From: Bacillota bacterium
Lineage (GTDB): Bacteria; Sysuimicrobiota; Sysuimicrobiia; Sysuimicrobiales; Segetimicrobiaceae
Assembly (NCBI GenBank): GCA_021324975.1
Contig: JAJPIA010000049.1
Span: 1 to 56,568, forward strand
Direction: 5' to 3'
DNA length: 56,568 bases
Shown: positions 722 through 8,184 of the stretch, one piece after another
Numbering within the stretch: the first letter of the stretch is position 1
Layout: each line of letters starts with the position of its first letter
Position numbers and translations under genes: made by a program
The notes under the pieces: generated by a model
Told to the model about the DNA's origin: nothing
The model's input: only the letters and a program-made list of their open reading frames with translations
Databases searched by the model: none

Positions 722-1819
722 CTACCGCGCGAGGGCGTCCCGTACGCGGCCGCGCCGCCCGAAGCGCCGCCTGACGCGCGTCCACTGCACCTCTATGCGT
801 TCCGCGACGAGCGCGCCGTAACCCGGCGACGCCTCCCCGTCGGTCCACCAGAGCAACGTCTGCCGTGCCAGCGCCTCGAGCGGGGATGGACGCCGGAACA
901 GCGTCGCGCGAATCCGCCGTTGCACCAAGCGGTCCACCGCGGCGCCTCGCCTGGGACGGAGCGCTTCGATGACCCGCTGCGGGACGCGAACGCCGAGCAG
1001 CGCGCGGGCCGCGCCGAAGCTGAGCCGGAGCGGCCCGCGGAGGTGACGGCCGCCGCCGGCGCAGGCGATGACGCGATCCCAGTCCACGGGCTTGCGGCGG
1101 ACGATCTCCGCGATGTCGCACAGGTAGCGAAGCATGGGCTTGCTCTCCCAAGCCTCGCGGACCACTTCGACGCTCGAAGCCACGAGCAGGTCCTCGGGCG
1201 CCGGCACCAACGCAACGGCGGCCCCGACGGCGACGCGCGAGGCGCGCCCAAAGACGGCGCCATAGTCGAGCTCGATCGCGTGAAACGGCTCCGCGTACTG
1301 CCAGTGAACATCCACGGGGAGCTTGCTCCATGACGGCGTGAAATAGCAATGCTCGTAGGCGTGGGTCCTGAGCGCCGGGCCCACGGCCGCGTACCCGGCC
1401 GCCTGCATCACCCCGGCGACTGCCTGGACGTCGCCGGGACGGACGAGCAGGTCGAGATCCGTAAACGGGCGCAGCGCCCCGTCCTCGTACGTGAACCGGG
1501 CCAGCGCCGCGCCTTTCAGCAGCACCGCGTCGATGCCGGCCGCCGCCAGCGTTTGGAGAAGCGCCTCGAGTTGAGTGTACGCCGCCGCGGTACGATCGGC
1601 GCCCTCGCGGCGCAACCGCTCGAACGTCGGCGTCAGGGCTTCCGGGGCCGCTGGATCGGCGCACAGCCGGTCGCCGACGAGGGACGCGACGCCTTCGCGG
1701 AGCGCCAGGCGCAGAACCGCGTTCCATTCCGCCGCCGCCGGCGGGCCGGACGGCCTCCCCGTTCGCAGGATGGCGAGCAGATCGCGTTCGGCCTGCCGCA
1801 GCGGATCGCGGGCGATCAC
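722..1819 (-). CDS. nucleotidyltransferase-fold protein (PF14907 type)
   Basis: 365 residues. The block 'DAVLLKGAAL' near residue 98 followed by 'FTDLDLLV' near 120 is the hallmark of the NTP_transf_5 family (PF14907), whose aspartates resemble those of the nucleotidyltransferase fold. Start GTG 1819 overlaps the stop of the upstream permease by GTGA, so it is preferred over ATG 1867. Relatives commonly sit in clusters with PqqD-like and HprK-like proteins, for example lasso-peptide and HPr-rel-A type loci, and exactly those two partners occur on the opposite strand at 4849-5978. The substrate is unknown. It is probably translated from one transcript with the ABC exporter. Confidence 0.72.
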   Translation of the reverse strand: MIARDPLRQAERDLLAILRTGRPSGPPAAAEWNAVLRLALREGVASLVGDRLCADPAAPEALTPTFERLRREGADRTAAAYTQLEALLQTLAAAGIDAVLLKGAALARFTYEDGALRPFTDLDLLVRPGDVQAVAGVMQAAGYAAVGPALRTHAYEHCYFTPSWSKLPVDVHWQYAEPFHAIELDYGAVFGRASRVAVGAAVALVPAPEDLLVASSVEVVREAWESKPMLRYLCDIAEIVRRKPVDWDRVIACAGGGRHLRGPLRLSFGAARALLGVRVPQRVIEALRPRRGAAVDRLVQRRIRATLFRRPSPLEALARQTLLWWTDGEASPGYGALVAERIEVQWTRVRRRFGRRGRVRDALAR

Positions 1820-2619
1820 GCGCTGAAGGCGCCGGAGCGCCGGATTTCGTGGAGCGCGAACCGGCACACGAGCACCGCAACCGGAAAGAGCCCCACGGCG
1901 AACGCCAGCAGGGCCGCCAGGTCGCCCGTCAGCTCGGCCGGGCCGGCGCCCTGGATCGCGGCCAACCGGAGCGCGCGCAGGCCGTGCGTGAGCGGGAGGT
2001 ATTCCGCCGCGCGCCTGAGCGCCGGCGGCAGCACGGACGTCGGATAGAACACACCGGCCAGCAGCACCGAGACGCTGGCCAGCGTTCCGGTCAACAGGTC
2101 AGGGCGCCTAAAGAGCAATACGAACGCCGCGGCCAGCATGCCGAGCGGCACCTGAGCCGCAGCGGTCAGCCCGGCGGCGCACAGAACGCCGACCGGGTTC
2201 GCGTGGGCAAGATGGGTCGGGAAGACGATGCTGGCCAGGGCAAAGTAGACGCACGCCTGCCCGGCGGCGACGAGGATCGCCCACAGCGAAACACCGAGCG
2301 CCATGGCCGGAAACGAGGCCGGCATGACGAGCAGCGTTTCGATGGTGCCGCCCAATTGTTCGTTGCGCACCGCGGCGGCGCACGCGCCCATCATCGCCGA
2401 GAAGAACGTGGCGGCGGCAACCCCCACGACGACGAACGTGAAGTAATCGCCGCCCGGCGCGCTTAGTGCCGGCACGGCACCGAGGTGGATCAGGCGCCCG
2501 AGATAGTACAGCGTGGGAACCGCGAACCCGACCGCGACCACTTGCCAGGCGAGCGCGAGGCGCGAGCCGCTCGCGAGCAGGTAATCACGCCTCAGGCACG
2601 CCAGGATGGAGGCCGTCAT
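1816..2619 (-). CDS. ABC-2 type transporter permease
   Basis: 267 residues with about six hydrophobic membrane segments and the ABC-2 layout: a cytoplasmic N-terminus, 'NEQLGGTIETLLVMP' in the first cytoplasmic loop, and the typical late 'FYPTSVLPPALRRAAEYLPLTHGLRALR' region near the fifth segment (quoted here only as landmark blocks). These permeases export drugs, polysaccharides or peptides. ATG 2619 overlaps the ATPase gene by 4 bp and the stop overlaps the nucleotidyltransferase start by 4 bp, so the three genes are translationally coupled. The substrate is not evident; a modified peptide or surface polymer would fit the locus. Confidence 0.85.
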   Translation of the reverse strand: MTASILACLRRDYLLASGSRLALAWQVVAVGFAVPTLYYLGRLIHLGAVPALSAPGGDYFTFVVVGVAAATFFSAMMGACAAAVRNEQLGGTIETLLVMPASFPAMALGVSLWAILVAAGQACVYFALASIVFPTHLAHANPVGVLCAAGLTAAAQVPLGMLAAAFVLLFRRPDLLTGTLASVSVLLAGVFYPTSVLPPALRRAAEYLPLTHGLRALRLAAIQGAGPAELTGDLAALLAFAVGLFPVAVLVCRFALHEIRRSGAFSA

Positions 2620-3371
2620 TGCGGTCTCCCGAGGAGCGTATGGTAGCGGCGCGTGAGGTCCCCCGGGCCGTCCATCGACACGGCTTCCCGCACGGTCCCC
2701 CCGGTGAGGATCGCGGCACGGTCGGCGAGCACCTCGGCCTCCTCCAAGTTGTGCGTCGCCATCACCACGGTCCGATGGTGTTCGCGGGCGAGCTGAGCCA
2801 CAAGCGTGCGGAACCCCGCCGCGGCGACGGGATCGAGGCTGCGCGTCGGCTCGTCGAACAAGAGCACCGGCGGGTCGCCCAACAACGCTCTTGCGATCGC
2901 CAGTCGCTGCCGCAAACCGGTCGAATACCGCCCGACCGGTTCCCGCGCCATGGGAAGCAGGTCCACGCGCTCGAGAGCCTCCGTCGCCCGGCGCCGGCCT
3001 GCCGCGGCGTGCATTCCGAGCAGGCCGGCGAAGAACTCCAGATTTTCGAGCCCGCTGAGCCGCCAGTAGAATCCCTGGTCGTCGCCGGCCGCGCGCCCGA
3101 TCAGGCGCTTTACCCGAGCGCTCTCCCGTGCGACATCGAATCCACCGATGAGCGCCGAGCCCTCAGTAGGGAGCAGGAGCGTGGCGAGGATCCTCAGAAG
3201 GGTGGTCTTGCCTGCGCCGTTCGGGCCGACGAGCGCCAAAACTTCACCGCGCCCCACGGCGAGGGTAATGCCCCTCAGCGCTCGAACCGATCGGGCTCCG
3301 GTCCGCGGCCGAGCGGCAAGCGCCCACGCTGGTCGGCGGAAGACTTTGCCGAGGTTACGAACATCGATCAT
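2616..3371 (-). CDS. ABC transporter ATP-binding protein
   Basis: 251 residues. Walker A GPNGAGKT lies at 49-56, a signature-like 'STGLRQR' near 150 (the usual LSGGQ is degenerate), Walker B 'LLFDEPT' follows, and an H-loop 'MATHN' completes the site. This matches ABC-2 drug/polymer-type exporter ATPases, which commonly have an STG-type signature. It is the first gene of the minus-strand transcript and would energise the permease at 1816-2619. It diverges from the LPFTG surface-protein gene with about 260 bp between starts, which suggests shared control. Confidence 0.88.
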   Translation of the reverse strand: MIDVRNLGKVFRRPAWALAARPRTGARSVRALRGITLAVGRGEVLALVGPNGAGKTTLLRILATLLLPTEGSALIGGFDVARESARVKRLIGRAAGDDQGFYWRLSGLENLEFFAGLLGMHAAAGRRRATEALERVDLLPMAREPVGRYSTGLRQRLAIARALLGDPPVLLFDEPTRSLDPVAAAGFRTLVAQLAREHHRTVVMATHNLEEAEVLADRAAILTGGTVREAVSMDGPGDLTRRYHTLLGRPQ

Positions 3372-3426
3372 AATGGCCGTGCGGCGGGTCGCGCTGCCGA
3401 CCGCATGACCGTCCGCCGGCAGTCAA

Positions 3427-3516
3427 ATGATACCAGGCGGCGCCAATCCCGGCCGATTGATCTGGGGAATGATGGGAAGTGTCAAACAGATAAGCGGTGC
3501 CTGGTCCTTTGAATGA
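3427..3516 (+). CDS. possible 29-residue peptide ORF (weak)
   Basis: An ATG at 3427 opens a 29-codon frame (MIPGGANPG...GAWSFE) in the relatively AT-rich gap between the divergent arms of the surface locus. It has no Shine-Dalgarno site and lies upstream of the best promoter (3540). It is listed only because the locus encodes PqqD-like and HprK-like proteins that elsewhere act on small peptides. It is more likely to be noncoding. Confidence 0.12.
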   Translation: MIPGGANPGRLIWGMMGSVKQISGAWSFE

Positions 3517-3539
3517 GCAGGACAACTGCCGGGTGTGTG

Positions 3540-3545
3540 TAAAAT
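3540..3545 (+). promoter_or_regulatory. extended -10 promoter for the surface locus
   Basis: TAAAAT at 3540-3545 follows TGTG, resembling an extended -10 element in otherwise GC-rich DNA. No good -35 is seen. Transcription would begin near 3552, giving a leader of about 78 bases before the ATG at 3630. Confidence 0.4.
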
Positions 3546-3595
3546 CCAATTGTACGGCGATGTTTGGCACAGTCGAGGCGCGAACCGTGCGGCCC

Positions 3596-3700
3596 ACGCC
3601 GCCGTAAGGGGGACGGGGGAGACCGAGGGATGCTGGGTTTTCGTGGCGGGGTAACGGTTCAACCAATCCCATTCGACCTCGGGGTCGTGTCGTCGTTCTC
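3596..3700 (+). promoter_or_regulatory. possible structured leader, ydaO (c-di-AMP)-like
   Basis: The region holds GGGGGACGGGGGAGACC (3608-3624), GGCGGGGTAACGG (3645-3657) and a perfect CGACC-TCGG-GGTCG hairpin (3674-3687). The order recalls the GGGGGAACC ... GGGGUGAAUCC core of ydaO riboswitches, which often precede cell-wall genes. The conserved 3' block is not convincing and the region overlaps the proposed coding start, so this is a low-confidence candidate. Confidence 0.2.
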
Positions 3701-4232
3701 GCCCGCACCACCCGGCCCGCCGCCTACACCACCGGGCCCGCCAAGCGGCGGTGGGGGTGGCGGCGGTGGGGGTGGCGGTGGTGGGGGAGGGGGCGGCGGC
3801 GGTTCGAGCTTCCCGGTCGCTGCCGGACTGTTGCCGTTGCTCCTCGGTGGGTTGCTCCCATTGCTCGCCAGTGCGCCCCAGACCACGGCTCCCGTGGCGG
3901 CTGTTATTGCACCGGTGCCCGCTGCCGGACAGGCGGCACCGGTTGCCGATGCCGCGTCCGCGACCACGCCGCCTGCGGCCGCAAGTCCGGTTGTGCTGGC
4001 CCAGGGACCGCGAAGCGTCGCGCCTCCCCACAGGCCGGTTGCCGCGGTTGCGAGCCCGAGCCGTCCGGCGCCGCGGGTGCTGCCGTTTACCGGCGCGAAC
4101 CTGTGGCTGCCGTTCATGGCCGGTGCGTTGCTGATCTGGGCCGGGATCTGCATGCGAGTGCTCCGGCGGGGTCTCCTCACTCGGGGTGTCGTCGCGCCCG
4201 ATGATGACCCGCGCACACCGACGTCAGGCTAG
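3630..4232 (+). CDS. glycine-rich LPFTG-anchored surface protein
   Basis: 200 residues from ATG 3630, which has GGGGGAG about nine bases upstream. In order: a proline-rich stretch (near 25-38); 19 consecutive glycines (40-58); a hydrophobic segment (about 62-80) that could be a delayed signal anchor; an Ala/Pro/Thr/Val-rich low-complexity stalk; and a C-terminal sorting signal made of LPFTG (151-155), a hydrophobic helix and the charged RVLRR. The next gene encodes a sortase, so covalent cell-wall attachment after the threonine is expected. The arrangement is odd because no classical N-terminal signal peptide precedes the glycine tract; the true start or topology may differ. It is a hypothetical protein with no recognised fold. 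Confidence 0.7.
   Translation: MLGFRGGVTVQPIPFDLGVVSSFSPAPPGPPPTPPGPPSGGGGGGGGGGGGGGGGGGGSSFPVAAGLLPLLLGGLLPLLASAPQTTAPVAAVIAPVPAAGQAAPVADAASATTPPAAASPVVLAQGPRSVAPPHRPVAAVASPSRPAPRVLPFTGANLWLPFMAGALLIWAGICMRVLRRGLLTRGVVAPDDDPRTPTSG
3747..3803 (+). repeat. GGN codon tract encoding 19 glycines
   Basis: Nineteen consecutive GGN codons (mixed GGC, GGT, GGG, GGA) lie inside the surface-protein gene. The mixed third bases argue for selection on polyglycine rather than simple DNA slippage, although length variation between strains is likely. Confidence 0.9.
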
Positions 4233-4818
4233 ACTCCTCGGCATTCTCTCCATAGTCTGCCTGGCGGCAGGCGTTGCCCTCGTGTTTCTGCCGGGCCTGT
4301 GGATCGCGGGTACGGGTCTCGGCGTCGGCGGCGCGCAGATCACCGCGCTCGCGGGTTGGGACCAGGATGGCGGAGCGTTTCATGCTTCCCCCGCCGACGC
4401 GCTCGTGATCGAAATCCCGAGGCTGCACGTGCGCCGATACGTCCCGGACGGTGCGACGCCGGATCATCTTCGGAAATACGGCGTGGGGCGGATCTCGTGG
4501 ACCAGCTGGCCCGACCGGGGCGGGTTGGTGGGGATCGCGGGACACCGCACGACGTACGGCGCGCCGTTCTTCTGGATCAACCGGCTCCAACCGGGAGATT
4601 CCATTTTGCTCGACTACCACGGCAAGCGCTACGCCTACGACGTGGTGCGGCAGGTCACGGTCCTGCCGGAGCAGTCGGACGTGCTCGACAGCAGCCCGCT
4701 TCAGCACGAGGTCGCGCTCGTGTCGTGCACCCCCTGGTACAGCGCCGCGTTTCGCCTCGTCGTCTTTGCCGACCTGTCCCAGGTGACGGCCCTTGCGCGG
4801 GGCCGCACCGCGCCCTAG
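4201..4818 (+). CDS. sortase (class D/E-like transpeptidase)
   Basis: 205 residues. One membrane helix (about 12-34) anchors an extracellular sortase domain. The catalytic triad is visible as His115 in 'GIAGHRTTYGAPF', Cys176 in 'ALVSCTPW' and Arg185 in 'AAFRLVV'. The 'GHRTTYGAPFFWINRLQPGD' region is typical of class D/E enzymes of Gram-positive bacteria. It cleaves between Thr and Gly of LPxTG-like signals and links the protein to peptidoglycan or pili. The gene overlaps the LPFTG protein gene by 32 bp, so that protein is its likely dedicated substrate. GTG 4186 is an alternative start adding five residues. Confidence 0.9.
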   Translation: MMTRAHRRQARLLGILSIVCLAAGVALVFLPGLWIAGTGLGVGGAQITALAGWDQDGGAFHASPADALVIEIPRLHVRRYVPDGATPDHLRKYGVGRISWTSWPDRGGLVGIAGHRTTYGAPFFWINRLQPGDSILLDYHGKRYAYDVVRQVTVLPEQSDVLDSSPLQHEVALVSCTPWYSAAFRLVVFADLSQVTALARGRTAP

Positions 4819-4848
4819 GGACGCCGGCGCCCAACCCGTCCCGACCCC

Positions 4849-5121
4849 GTGACAGCCAGTAATCCGGTTCACGCGCCCGACGCGGCGTTCCTCGCGGCGG
4901 CGCTCGACGACGAGATCGTGCTGCTCGATCTGGCGCGGGGACAGCTGGTTCTGCTCGACCGCGCGGCGGCGCGGGTGTGGCGCGCCTGCGGCACCCCGGA
5001 GGCTGCCGGCACGCGTCCGGAACGGCGCACCATGGGCATCCTGCGCCGCCTGGCGCGGGCCGGTGCCGTGGTGCGTCACGACGGCCACCGGTGGGTGCAG
5101 GCCCGCGTCCGATGGATCTGA
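4849..5121 (+). CDS. PqqD-like small protein
   Basis: 90 residues from GTG 4849. The pattern 'DDEIVLLDLARGQLVLLDRAAARVWRAC' (landmark of the fold) followed by a short helical segment and 'LARAGAVVRHDGHRWV' is that of PqqD-like proteins, which bind leader peptides in ribosomally made peptide pathways and also occur in HPr-rel-A loci with an HprK-like kinase. It lies 30 bp after the sortase gene and overlaps the kinase-like gene by 10 bp, so the three are co-transcribed. No radical SAM or cyclase partner is nearby. The family call rests on pattern and context and is moderately secure. Confidence 0.68.
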   Translation: MTASNPVHAPDAAFLAAALDDEIVLLDLARGQLVLLDRAAARVWRACGTPEAAGTRPERRTMGILRRLARAGAVVRHDGHRWVQARVRWI

Positions 5122-5978
5122 CCCCCGTGCCGCCGCTCGATGCCGGCGGCCGCAAGGCGGCGAAGATGCGGCTCGCGCTCGGAAGCTGGACGCTGCATCT
5201 CGCCGGCCCCCCGTCGGCGCTGCCGGCGGTTGGCGCGGTGCTGTCCGGGCTTCGCGTGGACGGCGAGGCGCCGCCCGCCGTGACCATCGCGCTGTCGTCC
5301 GATCTACGATCAGCGACCGGTGCCATCGGGACGCGGACGCTCTGGACGCTCGCGCTGCCGCCGTCCGGGTGGCTCGGCGCCGTGGTCGGGCAGGCCGTCG
5401 CGACGCTCGCAAATGTGCTGACGCGGCTGCTGTTCATTCACGCCGGCGCGGTCGCCGCGGACGGGCGGGGCTGCGTGATCGTCGGCGAGAGCGGGGCCGG
5501 CAAGACGTCGTTGGTCGCGTCGCTGACCCGGGCCGGCGCGACATCCATGGCGGACGACCTCGTCTTGCTCGATCCGGAGCACGGGACGATTCTCCCGGTG
5601 ATCATCCCTCTCGGCGTGAAGGCATGGACGGCGCGGGCCGCGGGCACGCTCCCGGCCGGCCGGGAAGTCGCGTGCGAGGGGGGGACGCGCTATTGGCTCC
5701 CGGACGCGCGCGCCCACACCCCCGCCCGGGCCGCGGCCTTCGTGTTCGTGGGACGCGGCGGGCTACCGGGGGTGCGCCCGCTCACGAGAGGCCAGGCGCT
5801 GCTCGCGCTGGCGCAGCACACGTCCTCGCTGTCCCGCCGGCACCGTCTCGAGGAGGCGTTTAGCGGCTTTGCCCGGGTGCTCGCCGCGGCGCAGTGCCTG
5901 ACGATCGGCGGGCGGCGCCCGGCCGCCTTGGCGCCGTCGGTGCTGCGGTACCTGCGCGCCGGCGCCGCGGCCCGGTGA
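5112..5978 (+). CDS. HPr kinase-like P-loop protein
   Basis: 288 residues. The HprK/PEPCK-type P-loop GESGAGKTS is at 125-133, preceded by the typical 'FIHAGAVAADGRG' strand and followed by the acidic 'ADD' (147-149), which in HPr kinase corresponds to catalytic/metal-binding residues. It lacks the N-terminal domain of true HprK. Such proteins pair with PqqD-like and PF14907 proteins; in some lasso-peptide loci a homologue phosphorylates the peptide. ATG 5112 is chosen because it overlaps the PqqD-like stop; longer starts would run antiparallel to coding sense in the PqqD-like gene. The phosphate acceptor here is unknown. Confidence 0.75.
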   Translation: MDLTPVPPLDAGGRKAAKMRLALGSWTLHLAGPPSALPAVGAVLSGLRVDGEAPPAVTIALSSDLRSATGAIGTRTLWTLALPPSGWLGAVVGQAVATLANVLTRLLFIHAGAVAADGRGCVIVGESGAGKTSLVASLTRAGATSMADDLVLLDPEHGTILPVIIPLGVKAWTARAAGTLPAGREVACEGGTRYWLPDARAHTPARAAAFVFVGRGGLPGVRPLTRGQALLALAQHTSSLSRRHRLEEAFSGFARVLAAAQCLTIGGRRPAALAPSVLRYLRAGAAAR

Positions 5979-5993
5979 TCGATCGGGCCGTCG

Positions 5994-6848
5994 CTAGGCG
6001 GGTTCCCAGCGCTGTCCTCCGGACGCCGTACGGACGATCCGTCCCCATGCCGGGAATTGGTCGTGGGAGAACACGAGCAACGCCGGGCGGTCGGTGACGT
6101 CCGCGATGATGCGGTCGCGCGACGCCTCGAGCGCCACGGCGTCTCGATTCGGCGGAGTCCAGTCGAGGTGCTCGACCTCGCACGGATGGTGAAATAGATC
6201 ACCCAGATAGTAGAACTCGCGGCCGCCGGTCTGCACATGGACGGCCAAGTGGCCGGGAGATTCGCCCGGCGTCGGCACCAGCAGCACGCCCGGGACAAGC
6301 TCGCGCGCGTCCTCCACGGGATCGAGGAGACCGAGATCGTCGATCAGCCCGAGGCGCGCGGCGTGGTCGGACCCGGCGTCCGCGCGTGCGGGGTTGCCCT
6401 CCCAGTCGGCCAGGCCGATGAGGTGGCGGGCCCGCGGGAATCTCGCGACCAGCGAACCGTCGCGTTCCAGCGCGACCCCGGCAAAGTGGTCGGCGTGCGC
6501 GTGCGTAATCACGACGTGCGAGACCGACTCCGGACGCTCCCCGATCCGCTCGAGGGCCGCCGCGAGGCCCGGCGATCGTGTGAGCCCGGGCCACTTCTGC
6601 GCGAACGCGCGCTGCCACGCCGACGAGGGGTCGTCGAGCCCCGGATCGATCACGATCGACGCGTCGCGGATGCGCAGGTGCATCGCGTTCAACCCGAGCC
6701 GGACCTTCCCGTCCGCCCCGGCGTCCGGCATGGCGCGCCGGCGTTCCGCCTCGGTGATCGCAAACCGCGGAAGCCATTCCAGCGTGCCGTCCGAGATCAC
6801 GGTGACGGTCGCTTCGCCGATGCGGCGTGTGGCGACGAACTCGGACAT
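5994..6848 (-). CDS. MBL-fold metallo-hydrolase
   Basis: 284 residues of the metallo-beta-lactamase superfamily. The metal motif HAHADH is at 116-121, the next ligand in 'ESPGHLAVHV' near 206-210, an aspartate in 'YYLGDLFHHP' and a terminal His in 'LLVFSHDQFP'. The overall pattern (long N-terminal strand region before HxHxDH, 'PGESPGH') resembles lactonase- and glyoxalase-like hydrolases of the AHL-lactonase/AttM type. The substrate cannot be assigned. It is convergent with the HprK-like gene (15 bp gap) and lies just downstream of the nucleobase permease on the same strand, possibly co-transcribed. Confidence 0.85.
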   Translation of the reverse strand: MSEFVATRRIGEATVTVISDGTLEWLPRFAITEAERRRAMPDAGADGKVRLGLNAMHLRIRDASIVIDPGLDDPSSAWQRAFAQKWPGLTRSPGLAAALERIGERPESVSHVVITHAHADHFAGVALERDGSLVARFPRARHLIGLADWEGNPARADAGSDHAARLGLIDDLGLLDPVEDARELVPGVLLVPTPGESPGHLAVHVQTGGREFYYLGDLFHHPCEVEHLDWTPPNRDAVALEASRDRIIADVTDRPALLVFSHDQFPAWGRIVRTASGGQRWEPA

Positions 6849-6876
6849 GGTACACCTCCCCGGCGCGGGTGCGCCG

Positions 6877-8184
6877 TTACGCGCCCGGCTGCTCGCTCGC
6901 GCCGGTGTCCGTGGCGGTGCCCGCGCCCTCCCGGAGCAATTGATACAGGACGATGGCGCCGAGGGCTCCCAGGCCGAGGTTGTTGATCTCGAACGCGCCC
7001 GCTTTGATGTCCGCCCCGCTCGCCGCCAGAATCAAAGGGATCGCCGCCGTCGCGAGGTTCGCGCGGTTGGAGAAGTCCACGCGGCCATCGACCCAGATCT
7101 TGCCGCCGATCGCGGCGATCAAGCCGAAGAGGTACAGCTCGATGCCGCCGAGCACGCTGAGCGGAATGCTCCCGACCAGGCCGCCGAACTTCGGCACGAA
7201 CCCGAGGAGGATGGCGACGATCGCGGCGGTGACGTACACCGTGATCGCAAATACGCGCGTGATGCCCATGACGCCGATGTTCTCCGCGTATGTCGTTTCC
7301 CCGGTGCCCCCGAACAGGGCGCTCACCATCGTGCCGATCCCGTCCCCCATGAAGGTTCGCCCGAGGTATCCGCTCAGGTCGCGCTTCATCAGACCGCTGA
7401 TCGCGTACACGTGGCCCGTGTTCTCGGCGATCAGCAGGATCGGGACGAACCAGAACAGGCTCAGCGCCCGCCAGGTGAACTGCGGCGGAAAGCTCAGCTG
7501 CGGATGGCCGAGCCAGGCGGCCCCGCTGACGAGCCCCCAGTTGACGTGGCATCCGGCCGTGGCGGGCGCGCATGCCGGATCGATCAGGGCCGCGATGTAC
7601 CCGACGATGATCCCGATGAGAATAGGCAGCAGCCGCAGGAATCCGTGGAGGTACACGCTCGCGAGCACGGCGGCGAGCACGGTGATCGTGGCCGTGACGA
7701 GGTCCTTGGAGTAGCTGCTCCAGGCCACCGGCGCGAGGGCCAGCCCGATCACGGCGACCACCGCCCCCGTGACCACCGGCGGCATGAAAAATCGCACGAC
7801 GCGCGTGCCGGCCCGGTGCACCACGAACCCGGCGATGAAATAGAGCAGGCCCGCAATGAAGATGCCGCCGAACGCCAGCGGCTGATTGTGGCCGGCGCCG
7901 CCCTGGATCGCCAGGATGGAGCCGATGAACGAGAACGACGAGCCGAGGTAGCTCGGCACGTTCCCCGCCGTCACGACAAGGAAGATCAACGTCGCGATGC
8001 CGCTGAACAACAGCACCGTATTGACGTTGAACCCGAGGATCAGCGGTACGACGACGGTGGCGCCGAACATCGCCATCACGTGCTGGATGCCCATCAGGAC
8101 GGTCTGGCCCCAGGGCAGACGATCCTCGGGGTAGTAGATGGGCTCTTCGCGGACGAGAGCGCGGGCACCCACTGCTGTCGCCAT
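6877..8184 (-). CDS. NCS2 family uracil/xanthine permease
   Basis: 435 residues and about 12-14 membrane segments. The family motif occurs as 'TTYAENIGVMGITRV', close to the UraA/RutG pyrimidine group, and the N-terminal 'GIQHVMAMFGATVVVP' is typical of NCS2 proton symporters. ATG 8184 is chosen because AAGGGGGG stands just upstream on this strand; the open frame continues upstream as unrelated low-complexity sequence. It likely imports uracil or a related base. The 380-bp leader region before it is unusually long for this genome. Confidence 0.9.
   Translation of the reverse strand: MATAVGARALVREEPIYYPEDRLPWGQTVLMGIQHVMAMFGATVVVPLILGFNVNTVLLFSGIATLIFLVVTAGNVPSYLGSSFSFIGSILAIQGGAGHNQPLAFGGIFIAGLLYFIAGFVVHRAGTRVVRFFMPPVVTGAVVAVIGLALAPVAWSSYSKDLVTATITVLAAVLASVYLHGFLRLLPILIGIIVGYIAALIDPACAPATAGCHVNWGLVSGAAWLGHPQLSFPPQFTWRALSLFWFVPILLIAENTGHVYAISGLMKRDLSGYLGRTFMGDGIGTMVSALFGGTGETTYAENIGVMGITRVFAITVYVTAAIVAILLGFVPKFGGLVGSIPLSVLGGIELYLFGLIAAIGGKIWVDGRVDFSNRANLATAAIPLILAASGADIKAGAFEINNLGLGALGAIVLYQLLREGAGTATDTGASEQPGA

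Follow-up and report, generated by a model that had tools for sequence, protein, structure and literature searches.

Co-inheritance of a class E-like sortase with a lasso/LPP-type peptide-modification module in the order Sysuimicrobiales: a candidate surface-protein system

Introduction

HprK-like kinases that act on peptides are known from lasso peptide biosynthesis, where they phosphorylate a serine of the precursor, need a His-Lys-Asp-Asp set for activity, and are joined by a nucleotidyltransferase, PsmN, that is needed for the addition of hexose to the phosphate (PMC9266682). Recent work has described a second group, the linear polyphosphorylated peptides (LPP), made by clusters of LppA, LppB, LppK, LppN, LppS, and LppD (PMC13381572, 2026). 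An LPP cluster encodes between one and three precursors whose C-termini vary; Ser3 of LppA is the residue that the kinase phosphorylates, and by residue numbers the conserved N-terminal motif ends there (PMC13381572). The biological role of these phosphorylated peptides has been stated as unknown, and biofilms have only been speculated upon (PMC13381572). Here we describe a locus of the order Sysuimicrobiales in which genes of this type stand beside a sortase and an LPFTG protein, its proposed substrate. The locus lies at positions 722–5978 of a 56,568-nucleotide stretch (the window; contig JAJPIA010000049.1 of assembly GCA_021324975.1), which is an entire contig of an incomplete genome (G000; 4.4 Mb, 144 contigs, 96% complete). 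By its HprK-like gene, the closest public relatives are Centralia_MAG_47 (88% identity) and Armatimonadetes bacterium CSP1-3 (now Candidatus Sysuimicrobiota). The comparison was made with a sample of 43 genomes of the order, searched with the HprK-like query and then with HprK-like and sortase profiles.

Gene content and co-inheritance

Seven named genes are present at 722–5978, all encoding intact proteins. The plus strand carries the genes of the LPFTG protein, the sortase, a PqqD-like protein and an HprK-like protein, and the minus strand those of a PF14907 protein, an ABC-2 permease and an ABC ATPase. On each strand adjoining genes either overlap or are separated by gaps of 30 nt. Between the two operons is a divergent intergenic region of 258 nt (3372–3629, assigned to no strand) that holds promoter-like consensus matches only. 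The original prediction, made from the letters of this DNA, counted eight components; the seven that it named are there, and the eighth went unnamed. The natural eighth is the gene of a secreted CAP-domain protein just outside the interval; this gene and its cyclic di-GMP (c-di-GMP) riboswitch were overlooked, as was the likeness of the LPFTG protein's N-terminus to a leader.

The sortase subfamily was found in 11 of the 43 genomes (E ≤ 2e-86) and the same 11 have the HprK-like subfamily (E ≤ 8e-97), the two being neighbours in 11/11. A twelfth HprK-like gene, which brings that subfamily to 12 genomes, is at the end of a 3.3 kb contig. In all 11 loci the LPxTG protein, sortase, PqqD-like and HprK-like genes occur together, and they are the core of the system. 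The arrangement is kept over three families of the order. The LPFTG gene is under purifying selection (dN/dS 0.12–0.26), the pairwise protein distances among the locus proteins are correlated (r = 0.84–0.96), and the sortase-linked HprKs separate as a clade from the remaining HprK-like proteins in the order (SH-aLRT 96). The claim that these genes make up one co-inherited system is borne out by the joint occurrence of the subfamilies and by their kept adjacency. The same HprK subfamily was found in 0/343 genomes outside the order, in a search that scored few candidates per genome and in which distant cases can be missed. An all-against-all comparison of open reading frames (ORFs) of at least 60 aa revealed no further gene family conserved across most loci.

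The order of the genes varies. In genome G009 (locus L034) the LPxTG protein, sortase, PqqD-like, HprK-like, ATPase, permease and PF14907 genes follow one another in the same direction as one operon, and a functional link between the two strands of the window is therefore supported. In genome G021 (L036) the operon consists of the CAP, LPxTG protein, sortase, PqqD-like and HprK-like genes; the ABC genes are absent at the locus and no PF14907 protein was found in the entire genome. PF14907 is absent from the G020 locus as well. The ABC-2 and PF14907 genes are therefore accessory, and the CAP gene is nearly always present. PF14907 as a part of the core is ruled out by G021, and with it goes the idea of the nucleotidyltransferase as an essential step. 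Co-conservation of the two strands, a test set beforehand, holds in most lineages and as a single operon in G009, whereas G021, and in part G020, can do without the minus strand.

All the loci come from one order, and common ancestry accounts for part of the synteny. A chance neighbourhood handed down by descent, with no functional link, is nevertheless unlikely in the extreme: the genes have been rearranged and yet stay together in G009, G021, and G032, which argues against mere shared ancestry; they are present or absent jointly over the 43 genomes; and the other sortases of the order have no HprK or PqqD neighbours.

The LPFTG protein and its sortase

The proposed precursor is the LPFTG protein of 200 aa (3630–4232, plus strand). 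Its gene starts at ATG 3630 and not at TTG 3564, since the former start is common to close orthologues and the frame of L025 is closed upstream. The protein begins with a leader-like motif, MLGFRGGVTVQPIPFDLGVVSSFSP (3630–3704, plus strand), with an invariant Ser24 encoded at 3699–3701. This is followed by a PG/poly-Gly stretch (19 consecutive Gly codons in the window), a hydrophobic segment, a Pro/Ala-rich stalk and the sorting signal, in which the LPFTG motif (4080–4094, plus strand) precedes a hydrophobic stretch and an Arg-rich tail. The plan is fixed over all lineages: about 25 conserved N-terminal residues, a Pro/Gly-rich part, the hydrophobic segment, the Pro/Ala-rich stalk and a sorting signal of LPFTG, LPYTG, LPYGG or LPFGG with a hydrophobic tail and Arg. 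The hydrophobic segment mostly has Pro directly after it (ASA-P, AHA-P, AGA-P).

A profile of the N-terminal 28 residues matches 13 LPxTG-family genes of the loci in 11 genomes at E ≤ 1.3e-10, these being the genes from which the profile was built, and found no additional substrates with the same leader in the 43 genomes (next best E=0.07). In leave-out tests, omitted genera of family f1 were recovered by the remaining leaders at 4.5e-8 to 3e-14 and the f2 leader by the f6 profile at 6e-8. Ser24 is conserved in 13/13 LPxTG-family leaders. A leader common to the whole order may be proposed from position, layout, one Gly and the terminal Ser. L026 and L032 each encode, in addition, a short protein that shares this leader and the hydrophobic segment and has no sorting signal.

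A second small precursor within the operon was considered and rejected: the four genes of the operon, from that of the LPFTG protein to that of the HprK-like protein, overlap or are spaced by 30 nt, which leaves no room for it. No other conserved ORF of at least 60 aa was found near the loci, a search that did not cover the shorter ORFs of the 258-nt divergent region. The LPFTG protein is the only visible substrate, as had been proposed.

The sortase (4186–4818, plus strand) is a member of its family by score (PF04203, 80 bits) and by its catalytic His120, Cys181, and Arg190, which are invariant. Class E (SrtE) is its best NCBIfam class match, SrtE1 (5cuw) is among the best solved structures, and the His, Cys and Arg are conserved as in that class; however, the score against the class E model NF033747 is 83.6 bits versus a cut-off of 160, and the sorting motif here is LP[FY]TG or LP[FY]GG. 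The enzyme is class E-like. In family f6 (L026 7603–8112, L032 10796–11314, L037 9016–9660) the substrates read LPYGG or LPFGG, with Gly replacing Thr where sortases cut. The f6 sortases have CTPAY after the catalytic Cys and the others have W, P or F in place of the A, a difference that is confounded by descent.

The modification module

The PqqD-like protein (4849–5121, plus strand) resembles the recognition elements of ribosomally synthesized and post-translationally modified peptides (RiPPs). The window protein matches PqqD at E=9e-4 with 19.9 bits (cut-off 23.4), and 8/10 orthologues match PqqD, the best at 1.5e-6. TbiB1 (PDB 5v1u), which binds leaders in lasso biosynthesis, is matched by a profile of the ten PqqD-like orthologues at E=5e-5 and was also ranked first by Foldseek with a low-confidence model (pLDDT 56). 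By analogy, the protein may bind a leader peptide.

The HprK-like protein (5112–5978, plus strand) has the PEPCK/HprK fold, with Foldseek matches to PEPCK at 1.7e-8 and to HprK at 3e-4, and it has the catalytic set of these kinases: H110, K131, and D148 are invariant and residue 149 is Asp or Glu. HprK-related kinase A (TIGR04352) is the best NCBIfam match of the window protein (E=1e-11) and is matched by all 12 orthologues (best E=1.6e-17), but the window protein reaches 44.6 bits versus an equivalog cut-off of 200 and is thus related to that family and not a member.

The nucleotidyltransferase-fold protein (722–1867, minus strand) belongs to PF14907 (148 bits, cut-off 31), and its DxD (D137, D139) and HW motifs are invariant in the orthologues. 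The minus strand also carries the genes of the DrrB-like ABC-2 permease (1816–2619) and the DrrA-like ABC ATPase (2616–3371). The reading of PqqD-like, HprK-like and PF14907 proteins as a lasso-type trio is upheld.

Related sets occur elsewhere in the order. The same genome has a second trio (L003, G000:C131, 9323–12389) of PF14907, PqqD-like and HprK-like genes, with glycosyltransferase genes after them. In this trio the PqqD-like ORF has a C-terminal tail, TFEAPVLHKYSDMQELLLLDPIHEVDEVGWP, that resembles a precursor with an FxxPxL motif fused to the recognition protein. L003 also encodes, at 6419–7459, a surface-type protein with a long terminal Gly/Asn (GNGG) repeat near an apparent sigma factor gene. 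L043 (G005:C115), L041 (G014:C17), and G026:C1 have an HprK-like gene with PF13471 and PF14907 nearby and no sortase, and are probable lasso-type clusters. G005 has both such a cluster and a sortase locus.

The CAP gene and its riboswitch

The secreted CAP-domain protein (PF00188, 53 bits) has a signal peptide and is encoded at 116–718 of the plus strand, tail to tail with the PF14907 gene; its start is probably ATT 116, the mechanical ORF start being TTG 131. CAP orthologues adjoin the system in 8/9 compared loci with contigs long enough. Upstream of the gene is a c-di-GMP-I-GGC riboswitch aptamer (RF03167; 4–81, plus strand; 62.5 bits, gathering 59). The RNA fold of 1–130 (z = -2.6) places a hairpin at 89–127 of the plus strand that contains the Shine-Dalgarno sequence GGAGGAG and the putative ATT start, with CGAATGG, beside the Shine-Dalgarno, pairing with the apparent start region. 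The sequence of both arms is kept in L025 and L028, and the hairpin is likely the expression platform. ATT is a rare start and may be held by the pairing. The predicted riboswitch and hairpin suggest that the CAP partner is controlled by c-di-GMP. In Gram-positive bacteria, c-di-GMP-I riboswitches are known upstream of genes for adhesins and for sortase substrates.

Aptamers of the c-di-GMP-I class occupy the equivalent position in L027, L028, L026, L031, and L035. None was found before the CAP genes of L032, L034, L036, and L078 or in L037, in which the CAP gene itself was not found, and c-di-GMP control of the system is therefore not universal. L077 and L078 (G023:C48, G009:C65) are loci of the order's other sortase type that have no HprK or PqqD neighbour and have a CAP gene adjoining; in L077 this CAP gene is also behind a c-di-GMP-I-GGC riboswitch.

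Comparison with lasso and LPP systems

The locus shares with the LPP clusters a discrete recognition protein, an HprK-like kinase and the lack of a cyclase. The counterpart of the LPP NTP (nucleoside triphosphate)-transferase is PF14907, which is present in the window and most loci and absent in G021 and from the G020 locus. LPP precursors are 35–200 aa long; as here, their N-terminal motif is conserved and closes with a conserved Ser, and their C-termini vary. The sortase, the LPxTG signal in the precursor, the CAP protein and the c-di-GMP riboswitch are features of the present locus that set it apart. In place of the MsbA-like exporter of LPP there is an ABC-2 permease with a separate ATPase, and no family like the archaeal-type signal peptidase I-like leader peptidase is conserved among ORFs of at least 60 aa. 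The LPP motif YxxPxVLxHQxIxFETxxS is replaced by GVTVQPIPFDLGVVSSFSP / GVRIASIPLAQGVTTFSP, and agreement is limited to the overall layout and the Ser at the end. The phylum also differs.

Phosphorylated lasso peptides of the paeninodin/pseudomycoidin type share with the locus a PqqD-like protein and an HprK-like kinase with His-Lys-Asp-Asp, and the annotated nucleotidyltransferase PsmN of pseudomycoidin is the counterpart of the PF14907 protein (PMC9266682); the substrate here, in contrast, is a wall protein of 200 aa. The B2 leader protease (PF13471) is absent from the whole of G000 and from 8/10 other genomes with a sortase locus; one is on another contig of G005 and a sub-cut-off match is elsewhere in G041. 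A macrolactam cyclase (asparagine synthetase-like) is not among the genes of the locus or those conserved across loci, although no genome-wide search was made for it. Both had been reported as missing, and both statements stand within these limits. In its proposed working the system resembles LPP and lasso kinase modules but falls outside their definitions, since the genome lacks a B2 protease, no leader peptidase is conserved, the YxxP motif is missing and the transporter is of the ABC-2 type and not MsbA-like.

A literature search for sortases with PqqD or HprK found no such published system. When TIGR04352 matches and sortase positions were compared over 386 genomes, one other neighbourhood appeared, in G373 of another phylum (L074, 6446–15873). 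It encodes on one strand a PqqD-like protein, a radical SAM/SPASM-like protein, an HprK-like protein, a signal peptidase-like protein, a C25-like peptidase, a sortase and an LPATG protein, several of these names being read from sequence only. The HprK-sortase spacing of G373 is kept in a second genus (G393), and an independent pairing of a sortase with a PqqD/HprK module is possible.

Discussion

We give about an even chance to the reading of the locus as one surface system, in which the class E-like sortase and a peptide-modification module of the lasso/LPP type act together and the LPFTG protein is the precursor. Its more specific form, in which RiPP-type recognition and HprK-type phosphorylation are dedicated to a sortase-anchored wall protein as a phosphopeptide system that is co-inherited across the order and linked by the CAP gene to c-di-GMP, is plausible at somewhat less than even. 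The N-terminal ~25 residues of the LPFTG protein would serve as a leader: bound to it in the cytoplasm, the PqqD-like protein would offer the chain to the HprK-like kinase for the addition of one or more phosphates to a Ser, most likely the invariant S24 of the SP motif. Where PF14907 is kept, this enzyme would decorate the phosphate, as PsmN does on lasso peptides. The hydrophobic segment would then insert the protein in the membrane with the Pro/Ala-rich stalk crossing outward, and the sortase would cleave LPFTG and join the stalk to an acceptor of the wall. The CAP protein would be a secreted partner, and since its expression is proposed to be set by c-di-GMP, an attached life style is the probable setting of the system. 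Modification joined to wall anchoring, the central idea of the original prediction, is the best-supported reading of the locus; it is the chemistry that we infer.

Several points weigh against this reading. Each chemical step, including modification before export and its nature as phosphorylation or nucleotidylation, is inference. The leader is without the [Y/W]xxP motif used by known lasso and LPP recognition proteins, and the PqqD-like model (pLDDT 56) is too weak to stand alone. The f1-type and f6/f2-type leaders do not recover each other (best cross hit E=0.55), so that a single leader family across the order is not shown, and a profile made from another genus of the same family fails to recover the G032 leader. 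The reading offers no role for the ABC-2 transporter, and the counts of co-occurrence are not phylogenetically independent. Removal of the N-terminus by signal peptidase would keep the modified part from the surface.

Chance neighbourhood aside, other functions can be read from the same genes. Whether the N-terminus is retained decides between a modified surface product and a tether between membrane and wall, in which the hydrophobic segment would stay uncleaved, the C-terminus would be fixed to the wall and the inward tail would be reversibly phosphorylated by the kinase and recognition pair as a signal of wall attachment, with no modified surface product. Proline after a cleavage site is known to block signal peptidase I, and the Pro found mostly right after the hydrophobic segment would favour a lack of cleavage. 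HprK proteins are reversible kinases, and an N-terminus that stays inside would leave the leader in the cytoplasm. The topology and cleavage are predictions, however, the nearest precedents yield peptide products and PF14907 would have no obvious role, and we regard a tether as unlikely, though deserving of real weight. We rate as slightly less likely than the tether that the trio modifies another substrate, for instance a lipid or glycan for which the ABC-2 pair is the exporter, and adjoins the sortase as both serve the envelope. Polysaccharide loci often contain HprK, PqqD and PF14907 genes, and the second locus of this genome, with its glycosyltransferases, is one such case; ABC-2 exporters frequently move glycans or lipids; and the PF14907 gene overlaps the ABC permease gene and not the kinase gene. 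Yet the kinase and PqqD genes overlap each other, are separated from the sortase gene by 30 nt and, within the subfamily, always accompany it, G021 keeps both without ABC or PF14907 genes, and a recognition protein implies a peptide substrate, the only conserved leader being that of the LPxTG protein. Release of the modified N-terminal region as an active linear peptide, with the anchored stalk as carrier or by-product, seems improbable: the second short proteins of L026 and L032, which have the leader and no sorting signal, recall the multiple precursors of LPP, but no leader peptidase gene is conserved in the locus, and the sorting signal and sortase are invariant in 11/11 loci.

Sets of HprK-like, PqqD-like and PF14907 genes are widespread in bacteria, and the role of phosphorylated peptides has so far only been guessed. 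In the present locus such a module is tied by co-inheritance to a defined surface destination, a sortase substrate, and to a partner gene with a c-di-GMP riboswitch, and a vague guess on role thereby becomes a concrete and testable function. If the reading as a modified, sortase-anchored protein is true, the substrates of sortases would be extended to proteins with a leader and an installed modification, and the locus would give a view of the anchoring of wall proteins in an uncultured phylum, Candidatus Sysuimicrobiota.

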